This document shows positions 5,841 through 28,998 of a DNA stretch of 37,087 nt, piece by piece. Made by a program: the position numbers and the translations under genes. Origin of the DNA: a virus; IMG/VR virus record IMGVR_UViG_3300024185_000568, positions 1 to 37,087 of that record, one strand, 5' to 3'. Each line of letters begins with the position of its first letter. Position 1 is the first letter of the stretch. The notes beneath the pieces are model-generated. The model did not search any database and was not told the DNA's origin. It saw only the letters and a program-made list of their open reading frames with translations.

Positions 5841-6068
5841 ATGAATAAAAAGTTATATACAATGTTAAAAAGTAGTGCTGAGGCTGATAAAGCCAAAGCT
5901 CTACTTTCTTTAGACCTTCTTGGAAACAAATCAGTTGGTATCGGCGACCATTCTACTGAAGATTTCTACAAAAATGCAGAGGAAGCTCTGATTAAATTAG
6001 TAGATGCAGATGATAGATTAAATGCATTAGAAGATTATTTTGAAGAAGATTTAAAAGAAGTTTTATGA
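5841..6068 (+). CDS. Hypothetical small acidic protein, 75 aa
   Basis: I do not recognise this protein. It is helical, with a basic first third, then strongly acidic (DADDRLNALEDYFEEDLKEVL), and has no cysteine. It lies between uvsX and the 5' nuclease. Its stop overlaps the nuclease ATG by four bases (ATGA type at 6065-6068), so it is translationally coupled to replication and recombination genes. A role as a small accessory factor is possible but unproven. Confidence 0.7.
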   Translation: MNKKLYTMLKSSAEADKAKALLSLDLLGNKSVGIGDHSTEDFYKNAEEALIKLVDADDRLNALEDYFEEDLKEVL

Positions 6069-7120
6069 AAGAACTATACAAGAACATATTAGAGTCAGTT
6101 GAAACTGATAGAACTCAAAATATCGATAAACACAAGAATTCTCGTGTATTAATTATTGATGGGTTAAATACATTTATTAGATGTTGGACATCTATACCAA
6201 CTATGAATGATGATGGAGACCATGTTGCAGGAGTAACTGGTGTCCTACGTTCTATTGGATATGCAATCAGACAAACTCAACCGACTCGAGTTGTTGTTGT
6301 TTTTGATGGAAAAAATGGTTCACAGAGTAGAAAAAAAATATATCCTGAATATAAGGCTGGAAGAGATAAAAACAAACTTAGAGTAAATCGTCAGTACGCT
6401 GATATGATGAACGATGAGGATGAAAGAGAATCTATGAAACGTCAGTATGTTTGGTTAATGGAAATGATGCATGAACTTCCACTTACTACTATGATATACG
6501 ATGGTGTAGAAGCAGATGATATTATGGCATATATTCCAACTAAAATTTTAAAAGAAGGAGAACAAGCTGTAGTTATGTCAACTGATAAAGATTTTTTACA
6601 ATTAGTTGATGAAGATACAATTGTTTGGTCACCTACTAAAAAGAAAATTTATAATACAAATCGAATCAAAGAAGAATTTGGTTTAGACCCAAAAAATTTA
6701 TTACTTTATAGAGTACTTGATGGTGATAAATCAGATAATATACCAGGTGTATATGGATGTGGTATTAAAACACTTCTAAAGAGGTTTCCAGAACTTACAG
6801 ATGATAATGAACTATCCGTTGATAATTTACTTGAACTGGCAGAACAAAAAAAGGAAGAAACTAAAGGTAAGATTAAATTATACAATGATATCTTAGAATC
6901 TAAAAAACAGATTATCATGAATGAGAAATTAATGCAATTAAAAGATGTTGATATCTCAGGTCAAATAAAAATGAATGTTTTAGATAGATTTAATGAAGAT
7001 ATCAAACCATTAAATAAAATAGATTTCCTGAAAGTTTGTTTGAAATATAAAGTTACAGATAAATTTGGAGACCTGAATTCTTGGTTGAAAGATACTTTTG
7101 GTAATTTAATAACTGATTAA
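6065..7120 (+). CDS. 5'-3' exonuclease / flap endonuclease (T4 RNase H-like)
   Basis: This is a PIN/FEN-fold nuclease of the T4 RNase H and Pol I 5'-nuclease family, which removes RNA primers and 5' flaps from lagging strands. The acidic metal-binding residues appear in order: IIDGLN (Asp32), VVFDGKNG (Asp81), GVEADDI (Glu149, Asp151, Asp152), STDKDF (Asp173, Asp175) and LDGDKSDNIPG (Asp219, Asp221, Asp224). The last is followed by the helix-hairpin-helix segment GVYGCGIKTLL. Its 351 aa are somewhat longer than T4 RNase H (about 305), partly from an N-terminal extension of about 25 residues. It overlaps the preceding ORF and ends at the promoter of the helicase gene. Confidence 0.9.
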   Translation: MKELYKNILESVETDRTQNIDKHKNSRVLIIDGLNTFIRCWTSIPTMNDDGDHVAGVTGVLRSIGYAIRQTQPTRVVVVFDGKNGSQSRKKIYPEYKAGRDKNKLRVNRQYADMMNDEDERESMKRQYVWLMEMMHELPLTTMIYDGVEADDIMAYIPTKILKEGEQAVVMSTDKDFLQLVDEDTIVWSPTKKKIYNTNRIKEEFGLDPKNLLLYRVLDGDKSDNIPGVYGCGIKTLLKRFPELTDDNELSVDNLLELAEQKKEETKGKIKLYNDILESKKQIIMNEKLMQLKDVDISGQIKMNVLDRFNEDIKPLNKIDFLKVCLKYKVTDKFGDLNSWLKDTFGNLITD

Positions 7121-7152
7121 TTTGGATATTAAAAATAAATTTCGTATATTTG
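7121..7152 (+). promoter_or_regulatory. Bacteroidota-type promoter for the helicase gene
   Basis: TTTG (7121-7124), a 20-base spacer ending AAATTTCG, and TATATTTG (7145-7152) form a perfect consensus. The promoter starts directly after the stop of the nuclease gene. The helicase ATG follows 23 bases after the -7 element. Confidence 0.8.
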
Positions 7153-7175
7153 TATAAGTTTTAAAAACCCAATCA

Positions 7176-8540
7176 ATGCAAGAACAAAAAGTAGATACAT
7201 TATCGAAATACGGGCAATCATTTCAATCAAAGGTTGTATCTGCACTTCTTACTGATACTAAGTTCCTCGATACAATAGGGGAAATAACCACTCCTAAGTT
7301 CTTTGAGAACGATGCTAACAAGTGGATTATATCCGAGATACTTGATTATCACAATGAGTACAAAAAAGCTCCTACATTAGATGTATTTAAGGTACAGTTA
7401 TCAAAAGTAGATAATGATATTCTTAAAAAAACTGTAATAGACCAGTTAAAGCATGTTCATACACAAATTGGTAATGTAGATTTAGATTATATTAAAAATG
7501 AATTTAAAGATTTTTGTATAAATCAAAATCTTAAGGGAGTAATTCTACGTTCAGTTGATTTATTACAAGCTGGTTCTTATGATAGAATCAAAGATTTAGT
7601 AGATGCTGCAATGAAAGTTGGTAATGAAACGGATTTAGGATTAGATTATAAAAACGATTTCGATGAACGAATGGAAGATTTAAATCGTTCAACCGTTGCA
7701 ACTAATTGGAAACCTATAAATGATTTAATGGATGGTGGATTAGGACCTGGAGAACTTGGTGTAATCGTTGCTCCATCTGGTGTAGGTAAAACATGGATAC
7801 TTACTGCACTTGGTGCAGATGCAGTTAGAAATGGTTTAAGTGTGGTTCATTACTCAATGGAATTATCAGAACATTATGTTGGTGCTAGATATGATACTGT
7901 ATTTACTCAAATACCATCAACAGATTTGAAAGATAAAAAAGAAGAAGTTAAATCAAAGATACAATCATTACAAGGAAAGTTACTTATTAAGTATTTCCCT
8001 CCAAAGGGTGTTTCTGTTAAGAAATTAAATCAACATATTGAAAAGATGATTGCTTCTGGTAACAAACCAGATTTAATCATTGTAGATTATGCAGATTTAC
8101 TATTATCAGATTCAAACAAAACTGATTCAACTTATGCAGAACAAGGTGGTGTTTATATTGACCTTCGTGGTATGGGCGGACATTTAGAAATCCCAATATG
8201 GACAGCATCTCAAACCAATCGTTCAGCAATTGATTCAGAAGTAATTGAAGCAGATAAGATTGCAGATTCTTATGCTAAAGTAATGAATGCAGATTTCATT
8301 ATGAGTTGGAGTAGAAAATCAAAAGATAAATTGAATGATACTGCAAGAGCTCACATTATGAAAAACAGATTTGGACCTGATGGAATTACGTTTCCATGTA
8401 AGATGAATACGAATACAGGTTACATTGAAGTATATGATGGTAATTCACCAGATGGTGTAATTGCAACAAAACAATCTGCAAGTGGACAATTAGAAACTAA
8501 AAAACTCCTACATAAGAAATATGTGGAAAATATGGGGTAA
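7176..8540 (+). CDS. Replicative DNA helicase, DnaB/T4 gp41-like
   Basis: This is a hexameric RecA-fold helicase that unwinds DNA 5'-3' at the fork and interacts with primase. The N-terminal 130 residues are helical, as in DnaB/gp41. The Walker A APSGVGKT is at 199-206. A DnaB-type SMELSEHYVGAR segment (227-238) is followed by Walker B DLIIVDYADLLL (299-310) and an SQTNRSA segment, as in the DnaB H3/H4 motifs. At 454 aa it matches T4 gp41 (475). It has its own promoter. The stop codon sits in the loop of a small hairpin (8532-8546). No primase gene is seen in this window. Confidence 0.92.
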   Translation: MQEQKVDTLSKYGQSFQSKVVSALLTDTKFLDTIGEITTPKFFENDANKWIISEILDYHNEYKKAPTLDVFKVQLSKVDNDILKKTVIDQLKHVHTQIGNVDLDYIKNEFKDFCINQNLKGVILRSVDLLQAGSYDRIKDLVDAAMKVGNETDLGLDYKNDFDERMEDLNRSTVATNWKPINDLMDGGLGPGELGVIVAPSGVGKTWILTALGADAVRNGLSVVHYSMELSEHYVGARYDTVFTQIPSTDLKDKKEEVKSKIQSLQGKLLIKYFPPKGVSVKKLNQHIEKMIASGNKPDLIIVDYADLLLSDSNKTDSTYAEQGGVYIDLRGMGGHLEIPIWTASQTNRSAIDSEVIEADKIADSYAKVMNADFIMSWSRKSKDKLNDTARAHIMKNRFGPDGITFPCKMNTNTGYIEVYDGNSPDGVIATKQSASGQLETKKLLHKKYVENMG

Positions 8541-8710
8541 CCCTATCAAAAAAATTATAACATAGTTATGATAAAAGTAGTATATGTGTAAAAATGAATA
8601 AACACAAAAAAAAATTATAAAAATTAATATCGTTTTTCAATATATACTATAATTATAAACACGACCAAACAATTGGTCACTTCAAACACAAATTAAAAAA
8701 AATAAAATTT
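8541..8710 (+). promoter_or_regulatory. Leader region of the Hc1 gene with a hairpin
   Basis: This 170-base gap contains no ORF longer than a few codons. A perfect 6-bp stem with a four-base loop, GACCAA-ACAA-TTGGTC, lies at 8663-8678. It follows an AT-only stretch, CAATATATACTATAATTATA, that could hold a promoter, although no TTTG-N20-TAnnTTTG match exists. The arrangement (AT block, then hairpin, then about 30 A-rich bases before ATG) resembles the gp32 leader. Regulatory meaning is inferred. Confidence 0.35.
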
Positions 8711-8881
8711 ATGGCAAATTCACAAGAATTATTTGAACAGATTAAAGATTTATTCGTTCAATTCGAAACAGAACACAATGGTGGTTCTAAAGCAGCTAAA
8801 TCAAGAGCAAGAAAAGCAATTGGTGAAGTTAAAAAATTAGTAACAGATTATAGAAAAGCTTCAGTAGAAGAATCAAAATAA
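8711..8881 (+). CDS. Histone H1-like protein Hc1 (Bacteroidota type), 56 aa
   Basis: This short gene encodes a basic helical protein starting MANSQELFEQIKDLF. Its second half, SKAAKSRARKAIGEVKKL, followed by DYRKASVEESK, reads like the small Hc1-type histone H1-like proteins common in Bacteroidota, which usually end in a KVSVEESK-like tail. Such proteins bind DNA through Lys/Ala-rich helices and compact the nucleoid. It has its own long leader, suggesting separate and possibly strong expression. The nrdB gene starts 10 bases after its stop. The match is from memory of the family, not a search. Roles in packaging, genome protection or host nucleoid takeover are inferences. Confidence 0.7.
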   Translation: MANSQELFEQIKDLFVQFETEHNGGSKAAKSRARKAIGEVKKLVTDYRKASVEESK

Positions 8882-8891
8882 TTAAATTACT

Positions 8892-9887
8892 ATGAGCAAA
8901 ATTTTCCAAGAAAGAATTCCATTTAAACCATTTGAATATCCAATCTACTATACAGAAGGTTGGTTAAAACAGGCACAGGCATTTTGGTTACATACTGAAA
9001 TACCGATGCAGGGTGATGTAAAAGATTGGAATGAACGTTTAACCCCAGCTGAGAAAAACTTAGTGGGGAATATTCTACTTGGTTTTGCTCAAACTGAATG
9101 TGCAGTTTCTGATTATTGGACTAATATGGTTACCGATTGGTTTCCTAAACACGAGATAAGACAGATGGCGATGATGTTTGGTTCACAAGAAACAATTCAT
9201 GCTACTGCATATTCATACTTAAATGAAACATTAGGATTAGATGACTTCTCAGCGTTTTTGCACGAACCTGCAGTTGCTGAGAAGTTTGAACTCCTTACTG
9301 CTACTACTAACAATTGGACACATGAAGATTTGGCAACAAATCCAAAAGCAAGACAAGAAGTTGGTAGAAGTTTAGCAATCTTCTCTGCATTTAGTGAGGG
9401 AGTATCCCTATACTCTTCATTTGCAGTACTCTACTCATTCCAAATGAGAAATCTACTAAAAGGTATCGGACAACAAATGAAATGGTCTGTAAGAGATGAA
9501 TCTCTACATTCTAAGATGGGTTGTCAATTGTTCAGACATATGTGTGAAGAATATCCTACATTATTAGATGAGTGTAAAGAATCAATAGAAGAGGCTTCAA
9601 GATTAATCGTTCAGTTAGAAACAAACTTTATTGATATGATATTTGAACAAGGTGATTTAGAAAACCTTGAGAAAGAAGATTTAAAAGAGTTTATTAAAGC
9701 AAGAACAAATACAAAATTACAAGAATTGGGCTATAACCCTATTCACGAATTCGATAAACCGAAGGCTGAAAAGCTAGAATGGTTTTATCATCTTACAGGT
9801 GGACTCACTCATACTGATTTTTTTGCTGTTAGACCTACTGATTATAGTAAGGCTAATGAAGGTGAAGATTGGGGTGATTTATTTTAA
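8892..9887 (+). CDS. nrdB: Ribonucleotide reductase class I, beta subunit
   Basis: This is the radical-generating subunit that, with NrdA, makes deoxyribonucleotides for phage replication. The diiron ligands are visible: Glu69 (TEC) at the position of E. coli Asp84, Glu100 and His103 in SQETIHATAY, Glu169, and Glu203/His206 in RDESLHSKMG. The spacings between them match the E. coli enzyme. Tyr107, four residues after His103, is at the radical tyrosine position. The C-terminus, GEDWGDLF, has the acidic-aromatic tail that docks into NrdA. Its 331 aa are slightly short. The gene for NrdA is 1 kb downstream, separated by two unrelated small genes. Confidence 0.95.
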   Translation: MSKIFQERIPFKPFEYPIYYTEGWLKQAQAFWLHTEIPMQGDVKDWNERLTPAEKNLVGNILLGFAQTECAVSDYWTNMVTDWFPKHEIRQMAMMFGSQETIHATAYSYLNETLGLDDFSAFLHEPAVAEKFELLTATTNNWTHEDLATNPKARQEVGRSLAIFSAFSEGVSLYSSFAVLYSFQMRNLLKGIGQQMKWSVRDESLHSKMGCQLFRHMCEEYPTLLDECKESIEEASRLIVQLETNFIDMIFEQGDLENLEKEDLKEFIKARTNTKLQELGYNPIHEFDKPKAEKLEWFYHLTGGLTHTDFFAVRPTDYSKANEGEDWGDLF

Positions 9888-16239: not shown

Positions 16240-17075
16240 TACAAACACCAATAGAAGAATATCAACTTAAAGGTAAAACTGTTTATGTCAAACGAGATGA
16301 TTTGGTTGGTGATGGTGTAAACTATCCACGATGGGCAAAGGTTGAAGGTATAAGAAAGATTATAGAATCAGATTATATTGATAAATCAAAACCACTCACA
16401 CACCTTTCAGTATATGGAAGTTGGACAGGTTGGACATTATCTAAAATGTGTAAAGAATATGGTATTGAGTTTATTTCATCATACCCAGATTCTAAAACAT
16501 ATCCACCAGAACTATTAGAAATTATTAAAAGTAATGGGGCAACATTGAATCCAATGAAACCAAATATGATGAAACTGCTTGAGAATAAATTAGGTGGTAT
16601 CGCAAAAAAGAATGGTTGGCAACAACTACCATATGCTTTTAATCATCCTACTTACATAAATTATATGCAAAATAGAATGAAAGATGTATTAGCAGAACAA
16701 GATTTTGACCACCTTGTTGTATCAATTGGTAGTGGTGTAACTGCATCTGGTTTAATTCGAGAATTTTTACAATATAAAGATTGGAAAGATATTCTTAATA
16801 ACAAAAGAAAAGTTCATACAATTACAATGTCTGCAATACATTCTACTCAAAAGATTCTCAATGAAAATAAAGCAGGAGATTTAAACAATATTAATATTTA
16901 CAAATCCCCATTTGAGTTTAATGATTTAATGGAAGATTATTCTGTTCCATTTGATTGTAATGAATTTTGGGATAAGAAAATGTGGTTTTGGTTAGAAGAA
17001 AATATTGAATCACTAGATGGTAAAATACTATTTTGGAACATTGGTGGTTCTTATCAAACATCATTAGGATTATGA
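16230..17075 (+). CDS. PLP-dependent enzyme, fold type II (ACC deaminase / cysteine desulfhydrase-like)
   Basis: The segments follow the ACC deaminase / D-cysteine desulfhydrase pattern of tryptophan-synthase-beta-like enzymes. These are VYVKRDDLVGDGVNYPRW, a SVYGSWTGWTLSKMCKEYG helix, SIGSGVTASGL as the PLP phosphate loop (about residues 166-176), and ILFWNIGGSYQTSLGL at the end. The Schiff-base lysine is probably Lys37 (WAKVEG), but the usual NKxRK context is altered. At 281 aa it is short. It overlaps the amidotransferase gene by 10 bases and the next methyltransferase by four, so the three are translationally coupled. Amino acid or modified-nucleotide chemistry is likely; the substrate is unknown. 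Confidence 0.72.
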   Translation: MGIIQTPIEEYQLKGKTVYVKRDDLVGDGVNYPRWAKVEGIRKIIESDYIDKSKPLTHLSVYGSWTGWTLSKMCKEYGIEFISSYPDSKTYPPELLEIIKSNGATLNPMKPNMMKLLENKLGGIAKKNGWQQLPYAFNHPTYINYMQNRMKDVLAEQDFDHLVVSIGSGVTASGLIREFLQYKDWKDILNNKRKVHTITMSAIHSTQKILNENKAGDLNNINIYKSPFEFNDLMEDYSVPFDCNEFWDKKMWFWLEENIESLDGKILFWNIGGSYQTSLGL

Positions 17076-18304
17076 CAAACGGCGAAGATATATTAGCAAA
17101 ATATAGGAAGGATATATTTGAAGGAGATTTTCCAACAATTTCAGAAAATGATTGGGAAACTTTAAAAGAATCATATCCAAAAGACCAAGTAAAAGAAATG
17201 TTGGCTGAACTTTTTATGGAATATCCAATACCCTATGCAGAAATTAGTGAAGAAAATGCTTACAATGATTACCTTAAACTAAAAGCTTTTCGCTGGATAG
17301 AATATCTAAAGGAAGGTGAGTGGTTCCCAAGAAAAGCAGCTGAATCAAAATATCCATTAACATATAATGGAAAACAACAATTCTTTTCTCGTATTAATAC
17401 AGGTAATAGGGCATCTAATTACTTTCAACAGCACAACAGATGGTCAGTAGATGGTTCAGTTTCTCCAGGTCCAAAAAGGACATGGGAAACCAAAGCATTT
17501 ATGAAATCACTAATGGGTTCAGCTTATTCTTTAAAATTACCACAAGTTGGTAAAAAAGAATTAAGAACAATGATTGGGTTACGCAAGTACATATGTGCTC
17601 AGTTCAAGCCAAATGTAGCCAAGATGTTTTATGATATGAATAATGCCAAGACCGTACTTGATTTTTCAATGGGCTGGGGAGATAGGTTAGCAGGGGCTTT
17701 CTCAAGCGAAACTGTTGAACATTATGTAGGACTAGACCCTCGTAAAGAGAATCACCCTATCTATGAACAACAAAGAGATTTCTATACCAAACATACATCT
17801 TTCTTCGAGAACCCAACTAAAACAACGTTCTATGAATCACCAGCAGAAGATTTTGATTACTCTGAATATAATGAGTACTTTGATATAGTATTTACATCAC
17901 CTCCATATTTCTCAGTAGAAAGATATTCACATGATGATACTCAAAGTTGGGTAAGATATAAAAACATTGATGTGTGGAATGAGCATTTCTTACATAAGGC
18001 ACTTGGAAAGATTATACCAACGGTAAAAAAAGGTGGGATAATTGCAGTAAACATAGCTGATGTATATGCAAGTTCTAAAGGAGGAAAAGATTGGTTAGAA
18101 ATATGTAATCCAATGATTGATTTCCTAACATCACAAGGATTAACTTACAAAGGTTGTATTGGTATGGAAATGGCAAAGAGACCTAATAGTGGTGGAGCAG
18201 GAACTGCTAAAGATGATGGACAGTATTCAGAGGAAAGTTTAAAATTAGCAGAAGAAACACAAAATCAAACTTTTTGTGAACCAATTTGGATAATTCAGAA
18301 ATAA
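17072..18304 (+). CDS. TSPPYF-type DNA (N6-adenine/N4-cytosine) methyltransferase, first paralog
   Basis: A SAM-binding motif I of unusual form, VLDFSMGWGDRLAG (about 195-208), is followed by the catalytic TSPPYF at 275-280, then a hydrophobic strand in GGIIAVNIADVY. The (D/N/S)PP(Y/F) motif marks enzymes that methylate exocyclic amino groups in DNA. I chose ATG 17072, which overlaps the previous stop (ATGA), over an in-frame ATG at 17033. The 410-aa protein has about 190 residues before motif I. No restriction nuclease gene is adjacent. Codon use shifts toward GCC, AAG, AGG and GGG around motif I (17580-17770). A paralog lies at 21653. Confidence 0.85.
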   Translation: MTNGEDILAKYRKDIFEGDFPTISENDWETLKESYPKDQVKEMLAELFMEYPIPYAEISEENAYNDYLKLKAFRWIEYLKEGEWFPRKAAESKYPLTYNGKQQFFSRINTGNRASNYFQQHNRWSVDGSVSPGPKRTWETKAFMKSLMGSAYSLKLPQVGKKELRTMIGLRKYICAQFKPNVAKMFYDMNNAKTVLDFSMGWGDRLAGAFSSETVEHYVGLDPRKENHPIYEQQRDFYTKHTSFFENPTKTTFYESPAEDFDYSEYNEYFDIVFTSPPYFSVERYSHDDTQSWVRYKNIDVWNEHFLHKALGKIIPTVKKGGIIAVNIADVYASSKGGKDWLEICNPMIDFLTSQGLTYKGCIGMEMAKRPNSGGAGTAKDDGQYSEESLKLAEETQNQTFCEPIWIIQK

Positions 18305-20939: not shown

Positions 20940-21653
20940 ATGGAAAAACAATCATTAAACAGGTTTGTATCAAAATACAACCTCGCAGGTTTAGTAGAAT
21001 CTGTAAAGTGGGAATCAAAAGATGGTTCTCTAACTACTTCTTTTATTTCTGATGATAAATCAGTATTAGGAAGTGTAAGTATGAAAGAGTTTGATACTTC
21101 AGATGCATCTTTTGGTGTATATGATACTTCAAAACTTACAAAAATGTTATCAGTTCTTGGTAACGATGTAGATTTCTCAATCAATGATATTGATGGGAAA
21201 CCAGTTTCTTTGAAATTCAAAGATGGTTCAACAAATGTAAATTATATGTTAGCTGATTTATCAGTTATCCCTAATGTACCAGATTTGAAACAATTACCAC
21301 CATTCAATGTGGAAATTAAATTAGATGCAAACTTTATCTCAAAGTTTATTAAAGCAAAAGGTGCTTTAGCTGATGAGAATAACTTTACATTTACTTGTAA
21401 AGATGGTGCTGGTCAAATTATTTTAGGTTATTCAAATATTAACACAAACAGAATTAACATAGATGTTGACTGTACTTGTGAAAAAGATGTTGACCCAATT
21501 TCTTTTTCGGCAACATACTTAAAAGAGATACTAGTTGCAAACAAAGAGGCTACTGATGCAATTTTAAAGATTTCATCTCAAGGATTATCACATATCTCTT
21601 TTTCAATCGATAACTACGAATCAAATTATTATTTAGTAGAAATACAAGCTTAA
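20940..21653 (+). CDS. DNA polymerase sliding clamp (T4 gp45-like)
   Basis: This 237-residue protein has the length and alternating strand pattern of T4 gp45, the trimeric ring that tethers polymerase to DNA and, in T4, also activates late transcription. Recognisable stretches are SKYNLAGLVESVKWESKDG, MKEFDTSDASFGVYDTSKL and the final strand pair ISFSIDNYESNYYLVEIQA, in which the repeat of DNA-facing and outer strands is clear. It follows the polymerase and has its own promoter, as expected for a protein needed in excess. The last base of its stop is the A of the next ATG. Confidence 0.88.
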   Translation: MEKQSLNRFVSKYNLAGLVESVKWESKDGSLTTSFISDDKSVLGSVSMKEFDTSDASFGVYDTSKLTKMLSVLGNDVDFSINDIDGKPVSLKFKDGSTNVNYMLADLSVIPNVPDLKQLPPFNVEIKLDANFISKFIKAKGALADENNFTFTCKDGAGQIILGYSNINTNRINIDVDCTCEKDVDPISFSATYLKEILVANKEATDAILKISSQGLSHISFSIDNYESNYYLVEIQA

Positions 21654-23290
21654 TGAGTGATAAACACTTTTACGAAAGAAGTAAGTTTTCCGAGTTTAAA
21701 TCCAATACTACTTATCATCAGTTGTTAGAAATGACTGATGATGAGTTTGTGGTATGGGCTCGTTTACTCCGTAAAGAGGTTACTACACAATGGGATGAAA
21801 GAGGAACTCCACCAGTAATTGGTAGAGATGAAGATGGTATTATTGAAAAGTTTAAGAAACTTAAATCTAATCCATCTAATTATTGGATTAAAGATGTAAC
21901 TGATGATACAGAATCATTGGGTATCATTAAAAACTTTAATAAAGATGCATCAGTTGTAAATCAGTTTTTTCCTACAATGTTAAAAACTAAGATATCAACA
22001 GGTAAATCTGCAGATGGTGGTTTATCTATTTATGACCATTTTTCAGACCCTACGTTAGAAGATAAGTTTGTTAAAATAATGAAACGAGCAGTTAAAAGAG
22101 ATTCAATGTACTCTTGGTCTCGTTCAATTGTTGATAAGAAAGATGAAAATCCTTTTTGGACTGGACAAAATATAGTTCAATTTGTAAAAGATGTTCATAA
22201 TGATAAAGTTTTTAAAGGAAAATATAAAAATTTAAGTATTGTTCTTGCAAAGGCTAAATCATCTACATTAGAAAATTATGGTACATTCAATGAAGAGTTT
22301 GTTGGATATGGTAATTTGTATATGTCTGCAGATGAAGTGAATAAATTAGTTGATGAGGGGTATTTAAATACAACTCAAACTTCTAATTTAGGTGAGATAG
22401 TTGATTCAACAACATCTGATGCAGGAACTGTTACTACTTATAAATATTTAATTCGTTGGTATGATAAAACAGATGGTATCTTTCCAAAAATATTACAAGT
22501 ATTTAGATTAAGTTGTGGACAACCAGCAGTAAACTTCCCAGCATTAACTGCTAAATGGATTTATGAAAACTATACTAAACATATAGATGATGATGAACCA
22601 TTACATATTTATGATTCATCAAGTGGTTGGGGTGGTAGAATCTTAGGAGCAATGAGTTCTCGTAAGAAAATTCACTATGTTGGTACAGACCCTAATCCTG
22701 ATAACTTCTTAAATGAAGAAGGTATTTCTCGTTATGAGTACATGGCTAAGTTTTATAATGATAATTGTGTAGATGATTATTCAGATAAACTTACATCATT
22801 CTTTGATGTAACACCACAAGGTAACACCTATGAGTTATTTCAAAATGGTTCAGAATTAATCTCAAACAATCCTAAGTTTCAAAAGTATAAAGGTAAATTA
22901 GATATTTCATTTACTTCACCTCCTTACTTTAATAGAGAACAATATTCACAAGATGAGAATCAATCGTTCAAAGCTTATGGTGAATATGAAGATTGGAGAG
23001 ATAACTTTTTAAGACCTACTCTAACAACAATCTATGAATATCTTAAAAACGATAGATATATACTATGGAATATTGCAGATATTAAAATCGGTAAATCAAT
23101 TTACTATCCATTAGAACAAGATTCAATTGATATCTTAAATGAATTAGGTTGTGAATATAAAGGTAAACTTAAAATGTTAATGACACGAATGGTTGGATTA
23201 GACCCATCTAAGAGTGGAATAAAAAATTCAGTTCAATACGAAGGAAAGGCATATAAATTTGAACCAATCTTCGTTTTTTATAAACCTTAA
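21653..23290 (+). CDS. TSPPYF-type DNA methyltransferase, second paralog with N-terminal extension
   Basis: Motif I has the form IYDSSSGWGGRILGA (319-333) and the catalytic TSPPYF is at 421-426. WNIADIKIG and an FEPIFVFY ending parallel the 17072 enzyme. The two share the rare S-x-GWG-x-R form of motif I and similar spacing, so they are paralogs. This one has about 130 more residues before motif I, perhaps a target-recognition or other domain. It overlaps the clamp stop by one base (TAATG). No restriction partner is next to it. Target base is likely adenine N6 or cytosine N4, by family. Confidence 0.85.
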   Translation: MSDKHFYERSKFSEFKSNTTYHQLLEMTDDEFVVWARLLRKEVTTQWDERGTPPVIGRDEDGIIEKFKKLKSNPSNYWIKDVTDDTESLGIIKNFNKDASVVNQFFPTMLKTKISTGKSADGGLSIYDHFSDPTLEDKFVKIMKRAVKRDSMYSWSRSIVDKKDENPFWTGQNIVQFVKDVHNDKVFKGKYKNLSIVLAKAKSSTLENYGTFNEEFVGYGNLYMSADEVNKLVDEGYLNTTQTSNLGEIVDSTTSDAGTVTTYKYLIRWYDKTDGIFPKILQVFRLSCGQPAVNFPALTAKWIYENYTKHIDDDEPLHIYDSSSGWGGRILGAMSSRKKIHYVGTDPNPDNFLNEEGISRYEYMAKFYNDNCVDDYSDKLTSFFDVTPQGNTYELFQNGSELISNNPKFQKYKGKLDISFTSPPYFNREQYSQDENQSFKAYGEYEDWRDNFLRPTLTTIYEYLKNDRYILWNIADIKIGKSIYYPLEQDSIDILNELGCEYKGKLKMLMTRMVGLDPSKSGIKNSVQYEGKAYKFEPIFVFYKP

Positions 23291-23304
23291 ATACTTATAC
23301 AAAG

Positions 23305-23442
23305 ATGAGTGAAACTTATATTATAAATTTTACAAATTACAAAGATAACAACTATTTTACAAACTCTACAGCAACCGCTGATAGAGTAACTTTCTATAAA
23401 ACAGATACTATTAATTTTAATAAAAACGAATGTCCTTCTTAG
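23305..23442 (+). CDS. Small hypothetical protein, 45 aa
   Basis: The short ORF starts at ATG 23305, 14 bases after the methyltransferase stop, with an A-rich leader (ACAAAGATG). It encodes MSETYIINFTNYKDN followed by a Thr- and Asn-rich stretch and ends NECPS. I do not recognise it. The start context supports a real gene, but its length makes this uncertain. Its 3' end overlaps the first stem of the leader structure before the receptor gene. Confidence 0.4.
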   Translation: MSETYIINFTNYKDNNYFTNSTATADRVTFYKTDTINFNKNECPS

Positions 23443-23479
23443 TAACAGGACATAAAATACCTAATAGGTATAGGTTACT
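23431..23479 (+). promoter_or_regulatory. Possible structured leader of the TonB-dependent receptor gene
   Basis: TGTCCT (23431-23436) pairs with AGGACA (23447-23452) around a 10-base loop. The loop sequence AGTAAC (23441-23446) can pair with GTTACT (23474-23479), which would give a pseudoknot-like fold. No TTTG-N20-TAnnTTTG promoter is visible between 23291 and 23512. TAGGTTAC at 23471 is a poor -7 match. How the receptor gene is transcribed is therefore unclear. Confidence 0.3.
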
Positions 23480-23512
23480 AAAATTTAACTTAATTAATTA
23501 AAAACAATTATT

Positions 23513-26221
23513 ATGAGAAAACTATTATTAGTTGGATTGATGCTCTTAATGAGTATCACTACTTTTGCACAAATTAGTGGAAAAGTAATTGACAGCGAAA
23601 CAAATGACCCTCTACCAGGAGCAACCATCATCGTTCAAGGAACGGCAGATGGAACTGTAACTGGATTTGATGGAACATTTAGTATCGATGTTGAAGAAGG
23701 AACAATTCTTATTGTTTCTTACTTGGGTTATGAAACTGCTGAAATTTCAGCTGGTATTGATTCGGATATTATAGGATTATATCCTGATTTGAATCAACTA
23801 GGTGAAGTAGTAGTAACTTCTGGTGTAATTGATATTGCAAAGGTAAGAACAACTCCGGTTGCTGTATCTACAATTTCACCTGCAGAAATTGCTTTAAAAG
23901 TAGGTAACCAAGAGTTTCCTGAAATCATGAACAAAACTCCAGGAGTTTACGCTACCAAACAAGGTGGTGGTTATGGTGATTCAAGAATCTCTTTAAGAGG
24001 ATTCGACCAAAGAAACACATCATTCCTTATCAATGGGCAACCAGTAAATGATATGGAAAATGGATGGGTATATTGGTCTAACTGGCAAGGTTTAACAGAT
24101 GTTGCGAGTGGAATCCAATTACAAAGAGGCCTTGGTGCTTCAAGATTAGCAGTACCATCAGTAGGTGGTACTGTTTCTATTTTTACAAAGGCTGCAGAAG
24201 CTAAAAAGGGCTCATCTATACAACAATCAGTTGGTAACGATGGATACTTTAAAACTACTGCAGCAGTATCAACAGGATTAAATGATAATGGGTGGGCTAC
24301 ATCTGTGTTACTTTCTAAGTGGCAAGGTGATGGTTATATCTATAACACAAAAGGAGAGGGTTACACTTACTTCTTTGCGTTAGGATATGCACCTGAAGAT
24401 TCAGACCATTCTGTTAACTTTTCTTTCTTAGGTGCTGGACAATGGCATCATCAAAGAGATGTATGGGTTTCTATTAGAGATTACCAAAACTTTGGTAGCG
24501 AAGGAATCGATAGAAGATGGAATTCCAATGGTGGTGTTTTAAATGGTGAAGAATTCTCAATGAGAAGAAACTTCTATAACAAACCATTAGCAACATTAAA
24601 TTGGGATTGGGAAATCAACGATAACCTTAAACTAGCTACATCATTATATGGTTCAGCTGGTAGAGGTGGTGGAACAGGACCAAGAGGTAGAAATTACTAC
24701 AACTCGGAAACTGATATCTTACCTTTCAGAAAAGACCTTACAGAACACTACTTAGAAAATGGTAGAGGTTCAAGAACTCCTGAAGGATTTATTGATTTTG
24801 ATGCAGTTGTTGCATTTAACCAATCAAACACAGACCCATATAGTGGTGATTTACCATTTGCTGGTCAGTTAATTGGTTCTAATGGATTCCAAGATGATGG
24901 TGTTAATAGAAGTGCACTTGTAAGAAGAGCATCTATGAACTCTCATGACTGGGTTGGAGCAATTTCTAACTTAGAATATGAAAGTGGTGATTGGAAATAC
25001 TCAATAGGAGTAGATTTAAGAAACTACACAGGTTATCATTATAGAACTATAAATAACCTAATGGGATTAGATGGATATTACTCAACGGGTAATAAGAATT
25101 CTGCTGGTCAGATTATCAACACTACAATCGAAGCTTCTCCGTTCAATGATACAGGTATCAGAGGACCGAAGATAGATTATTATAATGTTGGTAAAGTTGG
25201 ATGGCAAGGATTAAATGGTTTAGTTGAATATAACAACGAAACTATTTCAGCTGTATTACAAGTAGGTGGTTCTAATCAATCTTTCCAAAGAATTGATTAC
25301 TTTGACCAACCAGGTAATCCAGAATCAGATACTAAGAATGTAGATGGTGGATACATCAAAGGTGGTGCAAACTACAATATTGATGAGAAACAAAACGTAT
25401 TCTTTAATGCTGGTGTGATTTCAAGACAACCACAATTCGGTGCTGTATTCCCTAACTATGGAAATGCAATCAACGAAGATTTACAAAACGAAGAAATTAA
25501 ATCATTCGAATTAGGATATGGTTTCATTGGTAGTAACTTTAAAGTTAATGTTAATGCATATTCAACAGTATGGGGTAATAGATTCGTTCAAAGAAGTTTA
25601 TCTAACCAACAAGGTGTAGATGGTTCAGCTCAATTTAAAGATATCGATGTATCACACAAAGGTATTGAAATTGAAACTTCTTATAACCCAACAGATAAGT
25701 TGAGATTAAAAGGTATGTTATCAATCGGTGATTGGAAATATACTAAAGATTTCGATGCAGAATTATTTGATGATAATCAACAATCAATCGGTACAGGTAC
25801 ATTATACCTAAAAGATGCTAAGGTAGGAGATGCTGCTCAGTTCACATCTTACTTCGAAGCAGATTACCAAGTATTCGATAAACTAAGAGTTGATTTAGGA
25901 TATAGATTTGTTGATGGATTATATGCTGATTATTCAATTACAGATTCAGAATTTACTCAACCTGGTAACAAGGGAGCTTTAAAATTACCATCTTATGGAT
26001 TGGCTGATTTAGGTGCAACTTACAGATTTGATTTATTCGGAAATAGTAGTTCGTTTAGAGTTAATGTAAATAACTTGTTTGATACTTACTACATAGCAGA
26101 ATCTAATACTAATATTCATGCTGGAGATGCTTCAGAAACATGGAATGGTGTAGATACAAGAAACTCAGTATGGTTCGGATTCGGACGTACTTTCAATGCT
26201 TCTCTAAAAGTAAGATTCTAA
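23513..26221 (+). CDS. TonB-dependent outer membrane receptor with carboxypeptidase-like N-terminal domain, 902 aa
   Basis: A signal peptide, MRKLLLVGLMLLMSITTFAQ, ends in the FAQ form typical of Bacteroidota. Residues 21-80 form a carboxypeptidase-regulatory-like beta sandwich (ISGKVIDSETNDPLPGATI, then FDGTFSIDV and LIVSYLGYE). LGEVVVTSG (97-105) is a TonB-box-like segment. A plug follows at about 110-225 (ISLRGFDQRNTSFLINGQP, LQRGLGASRLAVPSVGG). The rest is barrel strands ending FNASLKVRF, with the terminal Phe used for outer membrane assembly. Length and parts look complete, so it should be functional. There is no SusD partner. It lies between replication genes and ends in its own strong terminator, like a cargo (moron) gene. 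Ligand unknown. Such receptors import siderophores, vitamins or glycans, and many are phage receptors. Confidence 0.93.
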   Translation: MRKLLLVGLMLLMSITTFAQISGKVIDSETNDPLPGATIIVQGTADGTVTGFDGTFSIDVEEGTILIVSYLGYETAEISAGIDSDIIGLYPDLNQLGEVVVTSGVIDIAKVRTTPVAVSTISPAEIALKVGNQEFPEIMNKTPGVYATKQGGGYGDSRISLRGFDQRNTSFLINGQPVNDMENGWVYWSNWQGLTDVASGIQLQRGLGASRLAVPSVGGTVSIFTKAAEAKKGSSIQQSVGNDGYFKTTAAVSTGLNDNGWATSVLLSKWQGDGYIYNTKGEGYTYFFALGYAPEDSDHSVNFSFLGAGQWHHQRDVWVSIRDYQNFGSEGIDRRWNSNGGVLNGEEFSMRRNFYNKPLATLNWDWEINDNLKLATSLYGSAGRGGGTGPRGRNYYNSETDILPFRKDLTEHYLENGRGSRTPEGFIDFDAVVAFNQSNTDPYSGDLPFAGQLIGSNGFQDDGVNRSALVRRASMNSHDWVGAISNLEYESGDWKYSIGVDLRNYTGYHYRTINNLMGLDGYYSTGNKNSAGQIINTTIEASPFNDTGIRGPKIDYYNVGKVGWQGLNGLVEYNNETISAVLQVGGSNQSFQRIDYFDQPGNPESDTKNVDGGYIKGGANYNIDEKQNVFFNAGVISRQPQFGAVFPNYGNAINEDLQNEEIKSFELGYGFIGSNFKVNVNAYSTVWGNRFVQRSLSNQQGVDGSAQFKDIDVSHKGIEIETSYNPTDKLRLKGMLSIGDWKYTKDFDAELFDDNQQSIGTGTLYLKDAKVGDAAQFTSYFEADYQVFDKLRVDLGYRFVDGLYADYSITDSEFTQPGNKGALKLPSYGLADLGATYRFDLFGNSSSFRVNVNNLFDTYYIAESNTNIHAGDASETWNGVDTRNSVWFGFGRTFNASLKVRF

Positions 26222-26233
26222 AACTTATAAAAT

Positions 26234-26260
26234 AAGGGGGATTAATTTCCCCCTTTTTTA
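26234..26260 (+). terminator. Strong rho-independent terminator after the receptor gene
   Basis: AAGGGGG (26234-26240), the loop ATTAATTT and CCCCCTT (26249-26255) form a 7-bp GC-rich stem that runs into T6 (26254-26259). It starts 13 bases after the stop. It is the clearest intrinsic terminator in the window. Confidence 0.92.
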
Positions 26261-26288
26261 TTATCACAAGTTTCATAAAAATTAAAAA

Positions 26289-26834
26289 ATGAGTAAATTA
26301 ATAAACCTCTTCGGTGGACCTGGTATTGGGAAATCCTCAATAGCAAATGGTATCACTTACAAACTCAAAAAGAAACATATAAGTTGTAACAATCCTTATG
26401 AATTCCCAAAGAAATTAGCTTGGGACCAAAACATACCAGCAATATCAGACCAACTTTATGTATTTGCAAACCAACATAGAGGAATAGCAGAATGTTATGG
26501 TAAAGTAGATTATATAGTGATTGATTCACCAATTATGTTTTCTACAATTTATCATAGATATTATACAAAAGGATATCCTGCTGAATTTTATGGAGAACCT
26601 TTCCATAATTTAGTTATTGATTTACATAGAAAATATGATAGTATCAATATCTTATTAGAACGAGGTGAAACAATACACAATGATGATGAACGATTCCAAG
26701 ATTATCAGCAATCACTAGAAATTGATAAATTGTGTAAAAAAATATTAGAAGAAAACAAAATTCCTTACCATACAATTAAGGTTGATGGTAAAACAGTAAA
26801 AAAAGTTATGAAATTATTAGGAAATACCAAATAA
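26289..26834 (+). CDS. P-loop nucleotide kinase-like protein, 181 aa
   Basis: Walker A GGPGIGKS lies at 9-16, directly after the first strand (MSKLINLF). A DYIVIDSP segment is the Walker B strand and SINILLERGE a third core strand. This layout fits small AAA/adenylate-kinase-like phage proteins, often annotated as deoxynucleotide or thymidylate kinases. RGETIHNDDERFQDYQQS could form the lid with arginines. It follows the receptor terminator, with no strong promoter between 26261 and 26288. The promoter for the next gene lies inside its last codons. The substrate is unknown. A role in (modified) nucleotide phosphorylation would suit its neighbours, but this is inference. Confidence 0.7.
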   Translation: MSKLINLFGGPGIGKSSIANGITYKLKKKHISCNNPYEFPKKLAWDQNIPAISDQLYVFANQHRGIAECYGKVDYIVIDSPIMFSTIYHRYYTKGYPAEFYGEPFHNLVIDLHRKYDSINILLERGETIHNDDERFQDYQQSLEIDKLCKKILEENKIPYHTIKVDGKTVKKVMKLLGNTK

Positions 26835-26848
26835 ATTTCGTATATTTG
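26817..26848 (+). promoter_or_regulatory. Bacteroidota-type promoter for the clamp loader operon
   Basis: TATATTTG (26841-26848) is a perfect -7 box. The -33 position, 20 bases upstream, reads TTAG instead of TTTG and lies in the kinase coding sequence. The block from 26820 onward is identical to the promoter at 13516. Confidence 0.75.
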
Positions 26849-26861
26849 TATAACAAATAAA
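26820..26861 (+). repeat. 42-base exact repeat of promoter sequence, copy 2
   Basis: This is identical to 13516-13557. It overlaps the last 15 bases of the kinase gene, where it codes for the C-terminal GNTK residues and stop. One copy was therefore probably created by recombination. Confidence 0.85.
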
Positions 26862-26871
26862 AATAGATAAA

Positions 26872-27087
26872 ATGGCAAACTTACAAGAAATCGCAAAAAA
26901 GTTTAGAATCTCAGATAATTTTCTAAATTCAAAAGAAGATGGGTTACTAATAGTAGCATCATCATTACAAGACATTATAGGAGAAATGAACTCTGGTCAA
27001 ATAGACAGAAACAAGAAAGAATCTCTAATAGAAAAATTAGAAAGATTAACATCATTTTGTAAAGAAGTAAAAAACTCTACATTCTAA
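26872..27087 (+). CDS. Hypothetical protein, 71 aa
   Basis: I do not recognise this protein. It is helical (ANLQEIAKKFRISDNFL, LIVASSLQDIIGEMNSG, KESLIEKLERLTSFCKEV) and of mixed charge. It is the first gene behind the promoter at 26841 and precedes the clamp loader gene by one base. This suggests a small replication-linked protein, but no motif supports a function. Confidence 0.65.
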   Translation: MANLQEIAKKFRISDNFLNSKEDGLLIVASSLQDIIGEMNSGQIDRNKKESLIEKLERLTSFCKEVKNSTF

Positions 27088-27088
27088 A

Positions 27089-28039
27089 ATGGCATTTTTC
27101 GAGGATAATAACACAACTAAGAAGGTAAACAACTCTCTATGGGTAGAGAAGTATAGACCGTCTAAACTAACAGAATACGTTGGTAATGAACATTTAAAGG
27201 ATAAGGTAAAGGATTATCTTGAAAGTGGAGAAATCCCTCATCTTTTATTCTTCGGTAAAGCTGGAACAGGTAAAACAACTCTAGCTAAGTTAATTGTAAA
27301 TTCAATTGATTGTGACCATATCATTATAAATGCATCTGATGAAAACAATGTAGATACAGTTCGTAATAAAGTAAAGGGATTTGCTTCAACTGTTGGTTTC
27401 AAAGATATGAAAATAATCATACTTGATGAGTTTGATTATATGACACCAAACGCACAGGCAATCCTAAGAAACTTAATGGAAACGTTTTCAAGACATTGTA
27501 GATTTATCCTAACTTGTAATTATGTTGAGAAAGTAATCTCACCAATTAGAAGTAGAACACAAGAGTTTCAGATTGTACCTCCAACTAAAAAAGATGTTGC
27601 AATCCAAATCTCACAGATTTTAGGTAAAGAAGTTGTAAGTTTTCAACCAAAAGACCTTGTACCTATCATTGATAGTTCATATCCTGATATTAGAAAGATT
27701 ATTAATACTTGTCAGTTAAATTCATCTAAAGGACAGCTAAAACTTGATACAACCTCTGTAATTGATTCTGATTTAAAATCAAAGGTAGTTGAGATTATTA
27801 AGGGAAATGATTCCAAACCTAACAAGTGGAAAAATATTAGACAAGCAGTTGCTGATTCTCGTACACAAGATTTCACAGAACTTTATACATTCTTATATGA
27901 AAAGGTAGATGAGTATGGTGGTTCAAATACATCTAATATAATATTAATCTTATCAGAATCACAACACAAAGATGCATTAGTAGTAGATAAAGAAATTACT
28001 TTTATGTCTTGTATAATTCAAATAATAGGAATACTGTAA
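27089..28039 (+). CDS. Clamp loader large subunit (T4 gp44/RFC-like AAA+ ATPase)
   Basis: The protein opens the clamp and loads it on primed DNA. It begins with the RFC-family text SLWVEKYRPSKLTEYVGN. Walker A GKAGTGKT is at 56-63 and Walker B IIILDEF at 109-115. Sensor 1 FILTCN is near 139-144, and the SRC-like PIRSRTQEF (152-160) carries the arginine finger. Sensor 2 and the collar domain follow (SYPDIRKIINTCQLNS). Its 316 aa equal the T4 gp44 length (319). It belongs to one transcription unit with a small unknown, a zinc-ribbon protein and gp62. All ATPase motifs are intact. Confidence 0.93.
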   Translation: MAFFEDNNTTKKVNNSLWVEKYRPSKLTEYVGNEHLKDKVKDYLESGEIPHLLFFGKAGTGKTTLAKLIVNSIDCDHIIINASDENNVDTVRNKVKGFASTVGFKDMKIIILDEFDYMTPNAQAILRNLMETFSRHCRFILTCNYVEKVISPIRSRTQEFQIVPPTKKDVAIQISQILGKEVVSFQPKDLVPIIDSSYPDIRKIINTCQLNSSKGQLKLDTTSVIDSDLKSKVVEIIKGNDSKPNKWKNIRQAVADSRTQDFTELYTFLYEKVDEYGGSNTSNIILILSESQHKDALVVDKEITFMSCIIQIIGIL

Positions 28040-28050
28040 CTATATAAATT

Positions 28051-28269
28051 ATGAAGTACGACCATGATAATCCACTTACTGAAGAAGCATTAGAAATATT
28101 AGGAAAAGAAGATTTCGATTCTTTTCTTGAATATCTTGATGGAATGTCAGAGTATAAGAAAAGAAAAAAAAATCCAAGAGTACAAGAACATAAAGAAAAA
28201 AAACGAGAAGTTCTTAGAAAAACTGGTATAACAAAAATTAAAACAAATCGTGACCAATGGTTCGATTAA
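28051..28269 (+). CDS. Hypothetical charged protein, 72 aa
   Basis: I do not recognise this protein. The first 30 residues are acidic (NPLTEEALEILGKEDFDSFL). The rest is very Lys/Arg-rich (YKKRKKNPRVQEHKEKKREV) and could bind nucleic acid. It lies 11 bases after the clamp loader gene. The sharp charge split could suit a linker or adaptor, but this is a guess. Confidence 0.65.
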   Translation: MKYDHDNPLTEEALEILGKEDFDSFLEYLDGMSEYKKRKKNPRVQEHKEKKREVLRKTGITKIKTNRDQWFD

Positions 28270-28280
28270 ATAAATAAATT

Positions 28281-28547
28281 ATGGCAAAAATAGTAGGAAT
28301 GAATGGTGGTAATCAACCACATCAACAACCAAAAGTAGACTTAAAACAAGCTAAAGAAATGGTTTGTACAAGTGGTGAATGTGATGGAAGTGTATTCATA
28401 CAAGGAACTAAATTTCTGAAGTTATCAAAGATAGCAACAGGACAACCTAAAGATGCAATCATACCAGTAGAATTATATCTATGTGGGGATTGTGGTGAAA
28501 TAAACTCAGATTTATTACCTGATGAGTTAAAACCAATTATATCATAA
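28281..28547 (+). CDS. Small zinc-ribbon-like protein, 88 aa
   Basis: Two cysteine pairs, C-x4-C (Cys29, Cys34) and C-x2-C (Cys68, Cys71), are set 33 residues apart, as in zinc ribbons. The beta-rich middle (SVFIQGTKFLKLSK, IIPVELYLCGDCG) supports this. The N-terminus is Gln/His/Asn-rich and probably flexible. It sits between the two clamp loader subunit genes, one base before gp62. The placement suggests a replication accessory factor. The metal site is read from sequence; the function is unknown. Confidence 0.65.
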   Translation: MAKIVGMNGGNQPHQQPKVDLKQAKEMVCTSGECDGSVFIQGTKFLKLSKIATGQPKDAIIPVELYLCGDCGEINSDLLPDELKPIIS

Positions 28548-28548
28548 A

Positions 28549-28998
28549 ATGGCTAAATCTTTATTTGACCACATAAAGGCAGTAACACAATTTCAAGACC
28601 CAAAGTATTGGGATAAACTTGAAGATAGTGATAAGAAAACTTGGAGTAACTATATGGTACATCGTTTTCTTTCTATGAATTCCGATTGGATACAAGTTCT
28701 TTCTGAGATACAACCATATACTCAAACATTAGAACCTAAGCAGTTATATCTTGCCTTAATTGGATTAATTCCAAAAGGTAGGTATTATTTAAAATATACT
28801 AAAGGAAAGCGAGAAACTAAATATGAAAGTTTTTTATTAGAACTGATTATTCAAGATTTTCAATGTTCTTCATTAGAAGCGTTTGATTATTGTGAAATCC
28901 TTTATTCAACAAAAGAAGGTAGAGAAAATATCAAATATATGTGTGAGAAATATGGTATTGATAAAAAACAAATTACAAAATTAAAATTAAAGGTATGA
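28549..28998 (+). CDS. Clamp loader small subunit (T4 gp62-like)
   Basis: The 149-residue helical protein fits gp62, the non-ATPase clamp loader subunit. MVHRFLSMNSDWI is a segment often seen in phage gp62 proteins. LYLALIGLIPKGRYYLKYTK parallels the T4 stretch with AAVPRGKRYGKW. It lies near the gp44 gene, which is the usual arrangement in T4-like phages. It is somewhat shorter than T4 gp62 (187 aa). Its stop overlaps the radical SAM gene by four bases (ATGA). The call rests on two short motifs plus context. Confidence 0.75.
   Translation: MAKSLFDHIKAVTQFQDPKYWDKLEDSDKKTWSNYMVHRFLSMNSDWIQVLSEIQPYTQTLEPKQLYLALIGLIPKGRYYLKYTKGKRETKYESFLLELIIQDFQCSSLEAFDYCEILYSTKEGRENIKYMCEKYGIDKKQITKLKLKV

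Follow-up and report, generated by a model that had tools for sequence, protein, structure and literature searches.

A complete TonB-dependent transporter gene in T4-like phage DNA and its apparent exchange with bacteria

TonB-dependent receptors of the outer membrane are a usual battleground between phages and their hosts, and a receptor gene inside a phage raises the question of what the phage would do with it. Such a gene lies in a stretch of the IMG/VR virus record IMGVR_UViG_3300024185_000568 (positions 1–37,087, a linear fragment of 37,087 bases; hereafter “the window”), where an earlier reading made from the letters alone (the sequence-only reading) had noticed a complete receptor with a terminator of its own and had proposed import, superinfection exclusion and masking or decoy functions for it. 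We find that the gene is intact and is phage DNA, and sequence comparisons indicate that it is host-derived, moves among phages as a single-gene unit and has been exchanged repeatedly between phages and bacteria. As to its role, we lean towards a host-derived auxiliary gene that would keep or add TonB-driven uptake of a small ligand during infection.

An intact transporter gene in phage DNA

The open reading frame (ORF) runs from ATG to TAA without internal stops and encodes 902 amino acids (Table 1). Three Pfam domains exceed their cut-offs, CarbopepD_reg_2, Plug (PF07715; 47.7 bits versus a cut-off of 23.9) and TonB_dep_Rec_b-barrel (PF00593; residues 378–855, 44.2 bits versus 27), and the C-terminal F902 is at least 90% invariant across 54 relatives. 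By eye, without a predictor, the hydrophobic N-terminus resembles a signal peptide, and a strongly conserved TonB-box-like segment, LGEVVVT, lies N-terminal to the plug. An AlphaFold2 model built from 54 relatives (predicted local distance difference test score 81.6, predicted template modelling score 0.77) found its best solved match in BtuB (3m8b; Z 37.8, root-mean-square deviation 2.5, 536 aligned), with the small-molecule transporters Fiu, FhuA, FecA and PqqU also among the matches. Plug and barrel are common to the receptor and these transporters, but identities are only 12–18% in the listed rows and the receptor has an extra N-terminal CarboxypepD_reg domain. We regard the gene as confirmed to encode an intact, complete TonB-dependent transporter with a full predicted fold. 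The completeness claimed by the sequence-only reading is thereby upheld, as are the barrel, plug, carboxypeptidase-like domain and terminal Phe on which it relied, whereas its signal peptide and TonB box stand by eye only. Identity with SusC/RagA (TIGR04056) was rejected (91.1 bits versus a cut-off of 368.25, the match being restricted to residues 20–177), and a Pfam scan covering part of the window genes gave no SusD match in the direct neighbours of the receptor (20940–23290 and 26289–28039). The N-terminal domain (residues 20–95) is missing from a subset of relatives of ~836 amino acids, in phages as well as bacteria, and is the fastest-changing part of the receptor with the highest synonymous divergence (dS), which suggests domain exchange.

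Every record concerned is metagenomic, and the sequence-only reading had itself raised the worry of an assembly chimera; bacterial contamination of viral bins would have the same effect. Several lines of evidence reduce this explanation to a negligible chance, and we reject it. A viral contig of 275,970 bp (L008, record G001) holds a receptor gene 100% identical to that of the window with identical neighbours, and a T4 gp23 capsid gene lies ~76 kb from it. Together, gp23 (PF07068) and receptor occur in one record in four of the 34 records searched (G001, G021, G026 and G028; most others are fragments), and gp23 was found in none of 19 further records, most of them fragments. The 3′ junction of the window receptor recurs in contig L164. 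An empty site is present in L174, a 30-kb contig whose polymerase and clamp loader are 90 and 94% identical to those of the window: the window matches it up to 23284 (L174 position 9177) and again from 26285 (L174 position 9198), and in L174 the methyltransferase gene ends at 9183, its stop 18 nt ahead of the start of the kinase gene at 9202. Since L174 is without window positions 23285–26284 at this site, that stretch is an insert of ~3.0 kb. Finally, among 49 viral contigs, window-type phage genes stand on both sides of the receptor in 30 and on one side in 19, and the nearest flanking genes are all co-directional with it (79/79); these contigs are the 51 phage-labelled rows minus the window and the doubtful L106 (see below), near-duplicates such as L006/L007 and L043/L044 included. 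The cassette is thus confirmed as phage DNA. In the window the surroundings are a T4-type replication and nucleotide block (SSB, UvsX, exonuclease, DnaB-like helicase, NrdB and NrdA, together with thioredoxin-like, thymidylate-synthase-like, family-B polymerase, clamp and clamp loader genes), which agrees with the placement of the receptor inside a phage replication block by the sequence-only reading.

Movement among phages and exchange with bacteria

Across the 30 doubly flanked contigs, the receptor neighbours come in 10 different combinations. The gene recurs in related phages, where we looked for it, up to the 100% identical copy in G001, but it does not keep to one place as the sequence-only reading had envisaged. 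In 24 of these 30 contigs the first window-type gene after the receptor is an AAA_28 kinase gene, while the upstream neighbour varies, and this constancy may reflect an insertion hot spot or a functional pair. We compared the edges of shared identity between phages with close receptor copies in different surroundings. Upstream, shared identity starts at about −124 to −162 (L012, L013 and L016), −130 (L021 and L014), −40 (L004 and window) or −28 (L021 and L022); downstream it ends +12 to +55 past the stop in six pairs (L016, L014, L002, L003 and L004 versus partners). L018 and L021 are alike upstream and part at the stop codon itself, likeness continues downstream in L012/L013 and L021/L022, and L018/L026, L006/L007 and L043/L044 are collinear throughout. 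To judge from these edges, the receptor moves among phages as a single-gene unit of leader, gene and terminator, and together with the empty site in L174 they bear out the insert-like unit of the sequence-only reading.

The terminator itself is a weaker sign. After the stop codon, GGGGG, 8 nt, CCCCC and T6 form an intrinsic terminator as the sequence-only reading had described, which it took as a mark of cargo. By the same rule (hairpin and T run within 75 nt of the stop), a terminator follows 46 of the 51 phage-labelled rows (exceptions L106, L018, L019, L026 and L029) and 71 of the 77 genome copies; as terminators are equally frequent among genome copies, having one does not single the gene out as cargo, and that of the phage copies probably came along from bacteria. 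Measured against what defines a moron, a discrete insert missing at the site in a related phage was found, and the own terminator, also found, is non-specific. A promoter-like motif, TTTGG...TTCGTATATTTGTA, which we take to fit the Bacteroidota sigma consensus and hence to indicate a Bacteroidota host, was seen by eye upstream of 1443, 3328, 7176, 13566, 18341, 20940 and 26872 and, weaker, at 30298; none stands ahead of the receptor gene, and the 222-nt gap there is without TATATTTG.

We searched phage and bacterial genomes for the protein and built trees, as the sequence-only reading had proposed. In a tree of 152 rows (146 different; near-duplicate loci and proteins below 790 amino acids left out) the window copy falls into a 25-row clade (support 99) composed entirely of viral-contig sequences, and outside this clade phage and bacterial rows interleave. 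A mixture-model tree of 46 rows without the N-terminal domain, comprising 24 of the 51 phage and 22 of the 77 genome rows picked for spread (quick search, SH-like approximate likelihood-ratio test support only), needs seven changes between phage and genome, at least six of them forced by starred branches. The deep backbone of the trees is partly open, and they do not tell the direction of single transfers. One row, L106, had been labelled phage in the 152-row tree from ribonucleotide reductases only 22–26% identical to those of the window; it is probably bacterial and has, by eye, a sigma-factor-like neighbour, so that change counts from that tree are slightly off, and it was left out of the flank count and the 46-row tree. 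Viral copies are nested among cellular homologues, as expected of host origin, and the closest bacterial copies are 73–76% identical among the matches listed. Phage relatedness and receptor relatedness also disagree, as contig 3300021085_002851 has a polymerase 91% and a receptor 78% identical to those of the window, and contig 3300020442_002654 a polymerase 77% and a receptor 86% identical. Taken together, these relationships indicate that the receptor gene is host-derived and has been repeatedly exchanged between phages and bacteria. A separate observation concerns contig NZGF01000066.1 of a metagenome-assembled genome (L107): in the tree, its receptor and that of viral contig L080 are very close neighbours. 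Phage DNA may have been binned as this “bacterial” contig, or L080 may have picked the gene up recently.

In bacteria, a gene of a pgi cluster lies upstream of the receptor in ~35 of 80 loci (Pfam identified one member, clustering assigned the others), and 23 loci have a small hydrophobic gene, in most cases immediately after the receptor. This pgi-adjacent transporter of Flavobacteriia has the same domains and the same conserved loops as the phage protein at up to 76% identity among the matches listed. It differs in sitting at a chromosomal locus, with one orthologue per genome where present, whereas the phage copies are elsewhere, and in having a TTTTGCA-like promoter near the start (by eye), whereas phage copies have other leaders. 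In each of 12 genomes, chosen for holding the orthologue, one full-length match stood far above 10 to 49 weaker matches.

Among viruses, 436 stretches of the viral collection encode relatives of the receptor. Despite the many weaker matches per bacterial genome, 13 of the 14 plug domains over the cut-off in a phage sample selected by polymerase belong to this one receptor family. The sample consists of 21 contigs, each 40 kb or longer, from 80 loci found via DNA polymerase; the 13 domains lie in 13 contigs, with family membership taken from contig names and sequence hits. INPHARED held distant matches only (30 records, the best at 35.5% and marked UNVERIFIED), all human-fecal or metagenomic without annotation. 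Other TonB-dependent receptors were also encountered. The 252,603-bp contig G021 encodes a second, unrelated-looking one of 658 amino acids (L328:3573–5549) with a TATATTTG motif upstream and a secreted-looking 388-amino-acid gene downstream. A distant T4-like phage has a 36%-identical member of the broad receptor family (L221:1644–4187) immediately before its clamp loader, and another TonB-receptor type occurs in T4-like contigs selected by clamp loader (L326:2–2380 in G024, cut by the contig end, and L327 in G025).

Selection and possible roles

The phage copies are under purifying selection. Within the viral clade (24 sequences), the median ratio of nonsynonymous to synonymous divergence (dN/dS) is 0.18 (273 of 276 pairs), with the plug at 0.06, the TonB-box segment at 0.07, the barrel at 0.19 and the N-terminal domain at 0.31; the rows are long open frames, and broken copies fall outside the sample. 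The loops that would face a ligand are conserved as well. With loops defined on the model, and 21 of the 25 viral-clade rows compared with 22 bacterial rows, the extracellular loops together are 88.0% identical between phages, the strands 87.0%; loop identity is 71.5% between phages and bacteria versus 68.4% among bacteria, and loops L3, L5 and L7 to L11 reach 67 to 80% between phages and bacteria. Only ten sites distinguish the viral clade from the bacterial rows, and nine of these lie outside the extracellular loops.

Conserved loops together with a constrained plug and TonB box fit a transporter with an unchanged ligand and argue against masking or decoy, the roles of the sequence-only reading that fared worst. 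Nothing specific speaks for a decoy or masked receptor that has lost transport, and with the TonB box and plug the most constrained parts and the loops largely unchanged, we find this idea hardly credible. The loop conservation appears to argue against masking only; titration of TonB or crowding of other receptors would be compatible with it. Of the roles proposed, import is the best candidate, and it would work as follows. The receptor would be made during infection, exported to and inserted into the host outer membrane and powered by the host TonB–ExbBD, and the infected cell would keep or gain the ability to import a small ligand limiting for phage production, to the benefit of the phage. 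The phage copy may thus replace or boost a host function while host expression fails, as with psbA of cyanophages, a host gene kept in phages and repeatedly exchanged with hosts. The likeness lies in a host gene kept in a phage; the difference is that the window gene is for an outer-membrane transporter of Bacteroidota phages. As clues to the ligand, the neighbours of the bacterial copies (pgi, GH16, M23 peptidase, recA-like) agree on no substrate, and a link to NAD salvage through the NadR-like kinase next door was dropped (20.3 bits versus a cut-off of 341).

Several results weigh against an auxiliary uptake gene. In an even draw of 296 genomes from the order of Flavobacteria bacterium MS024-3C, with the three best candidates per genome scored, only 41 hold a clear orthologue (E ≤ 1e-180), which means that the phage gene is not just a copy of something every host has and weakens the notion of a core host gene, as the 12 genomes above were pre-selected. 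Eight of the 21 polymerase-selected contigs, which are fragments, have no plug match over the cut-off (G009, G011, G014 and G016–G020; G014 has a match below it, and G018–G020, with equal polymerase scores, may be one phage). Two extracellular loops, L4 and L6, stand out with markedly lower identity between phages and bacteria (59 and 57%). Moreover, the exact TATATTTG of the TTTGG/TATATTTG motif was found in none of the 51 phage-labelled rows within 250 nt before the mechanical start; in L034 it lies just across that start, ahead of the likely ATG.

The scarcity of the orthologue within the order, along with the repeated transfer between phages and bacteria, would suit a phage that supplies the gene to hosts without an orthologue and so widens their uptake. 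The hosts of the carriers may, however, all fall within the subset already holding the gene, and we judge such a new trait distinctly unlikely. A selfish or accidental passenger, a host gene gained by recombination and briefly kept, would account for the patchy presence (13 of 21), the varying location and the empty site in L174. Purifying selection in a deep all-viral clade and the repeated capture of the same gene family make it very improbable, even allowing that long open frames were sampled and broken copies would be missed.

Superinfection exclusion deserves more weight, although we still consider it unlikely. A phage-made receptor could flood the outer membrane and dilute the receptors of competitors, or titrate TonB, and so block TonB-dependent phage injection. 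This fold does serve as phage receptor, FhuA with T5 pb5 (8a8c, 8b14) and with the exclusion lipoprotein Llp (8a60) being among the fold matches, and a strongly conserved TonB box and plug would suit titration. Yet a full transporter with unchanged loops adds a possible phage receptor rather than removing one, and so few viral-clade-specific sites, nearly all outside the extracellular loops, speak against this role. Exclusion proteins such as Llp and Cor are moreover small proteins, not transporters: those of the T5 Llp type are likewise phage-encoded and act at a TonB-dependent receptor, but as small blockers, whereas the window phage encodes the whole transporter. SusC/RagA-family proteins are touched in infection, as in infected Cellulophaga baltica, where such a host protein bears methylation seen in infected cells only (PMC13288928). 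Phages with the cassette and phages with an empty site would offer a clean contrast between uptake and superinfection exclusion.

Marine Bacteroidota depend on TonB-dependent uptake, and their phages are poorly known. A wider proposition, which we put forward tentatively and at less than even chance, is that a mobile transporter cassette with a structured leader, mostly of one orthologue group, circulates among T4-like phages of marine Bacteroidota and between them and bacteria, and that through it the phage would set nutrient uptake of the infected cell. Phage genes would in that case encode part of the outer membrane of infected marine Bacteroidota, and a host lacking the orthologue would acquire a new uptake trait while the infection lasts, possibly under the control of the RNA leader. 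Should one particular importer indeed be carried by a common group of phages, infection would directly alter uptake from sea water, and a full outer-membrane transporter would join the host machines brought by lytic phages. Our results suggest that large T4-like viruses of marine Bacteroidota carrying an apparently working importer re-equip the surface of infected cells.

TonB receptors in phage genomes have been mentioned before. The megaphages Mar_Mega_1 and LR745206, large marine phages like that of the window, carry a SusC-type TonB receptor for which the authors suggested carbohydrate uptake in infection (PMC9723777); the mention is brief and, in the text available, without a cassette, recurrent exchange or a selection test, and the LR745206 protein matches the window receptor over 22% of the protein at 34% identity. 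For hot-spring phages with reconstructed genomes, TonB-dependent receptors are mentioned (PMC6302217), and a paper on viral auxiliary genes of gut phages includes SusC and iroN among its abbreviations (PMC12352455); both are mentions of such genes in, or alongside, phage genomes. For Lentisphaerae phages, ExbB has been proposed as an auxiliary uptake gene, in a paper that also cites cyanophage photosynthesis genes as an auxiliary-gene case (PMC11361711). ExbB is also a part of the TonB system, but as an energiser in chronic phages, whereas the window gene is for an outer-membrane transporter. Other papers concern host receptors (PMC13288928, PMC10013915) or mention TonB for islands or bacteria (PMC12494485, PMC6784887), and “tonb” is absent from the main text of PMC7198788, PMC8776804, PMC9723584 and PMC10507051. 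In the open-licence PMC literature, as far as its text was available and with subscription journals and supplements outside the scope, we found no description of a recurrent, exchanged TonB-transporter cassette.

Leader, feature coordinates and neighbouring genes

Table 1. Coordinates of the cassette, its parts and its flanking genes in the window.
Feature	Position	Strand	Basis or remark
Whole cassette (5′ leader region, TonB-dependent transporter gene, intrinsic terminator)	23291..26284	+	Without counterpart at the L174 site
Short ORF of 45 codons, function unassigned, possibly not a gene	23305..23442	+	Read from the sequence
Possible H-type pseudoknot RNA leader with inserted hairpin	23430..23481	+	No Rfam match above chance; covariation weak
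Leader arms: P1 ATGTCCT/AGGACAT, P2 TTAGTAAC/GTTACTAA, P3 ATACC/GGTAT	within 23430..23481	+	
TonB-dependent transporter, 902 amino acids	23513..26221	+	ORF, Pfam, model, fold matches
N-terminal CarboxypepD_reg-like domain, residues 21–101	23573..23815	+	Pfam
TonB-box-like segment LGEVVVT and linker, residues 96–110	23798..23842	+	By eye; viral-clade dN/dS 0.07
Plug domain, residues 111–232	23843..24208	+	Pfam match 111–190; end from model
Barrel, residues 233–902, 22 strands	24209..26218	+	Strands read from model secondary structure
Intrinsic terminator GGGGG/CCCCC-T6	26236..26259	+	Sequence
Upstream flank: DNA methyltransferase-like gene	21653..23290	+	
Downstream flank: P-loop (AAA_28) kinase-like gene	26289..26834	+	
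Clamp-loader large subunit (gp44 type)	27089..28039	+	

Seven of the phage leaders can adopt a shared three-helix RNA fold resembling a pseudoknot, and we describe the leader of the window as a possible pseudoknot structure with weak covariation. Rfam gave nothing at the gathering cut-off and otherwise matches at chance level. Single-strand folding, by a method to which pseudoknots are invisible, was moderately better than that of shuffled sequences (z −2.07; matched by 9 of 200 shuffles). Searching with a loosely defined pseudoknot proved non-specific, with 1086 distinct hits across 3.2 Mb, 250 across 20 bacterial loci and 118 across 0.86 Mb of shuffled sequence. A strict pattern matched solely before the receptor gene across the collected loci (five matches, identical copies collapsed) and misses L012 and L026. 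Two scans of the collection placed no other gene behind the motif among the matches listed; five receptor leaders with the motif represent three distinct sequences, and three further loci with AGTAAC look like chance. For the three helices, arms crossed between sequences score 5.5, 7.4 and 4.4 versus 5.9, 7.9 and 5.1 for a sequence’s own arms; because crossed arms pair almost as well, covariation does not prove the structure. The MAFFT alignment of the leaders displaces the P1 arm by one base.

Upstream of the receptor gene lie the sliding clamp and then the methyltransferase-like gene (20940–23290), downstream the P-loop kinase and then the clamp loader (26289–28998). The position between methyltransferase/clamp genes and clamp loader given by the sequence-only reading holds, except that the kinase, rather than the clamp loader, is the first intact gene to follow the receptor. 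GC content reaches up to 37.6% in the receptor gene, above most of the window, which also has 36–37% near 4.0–5.5 kb. Two methyltransferase-like genes of the window (17033–18304 and 21653–23290) both match phrog_12517, and L174 carries two similar methyltransferase-like genes in tandem (5903–9183).

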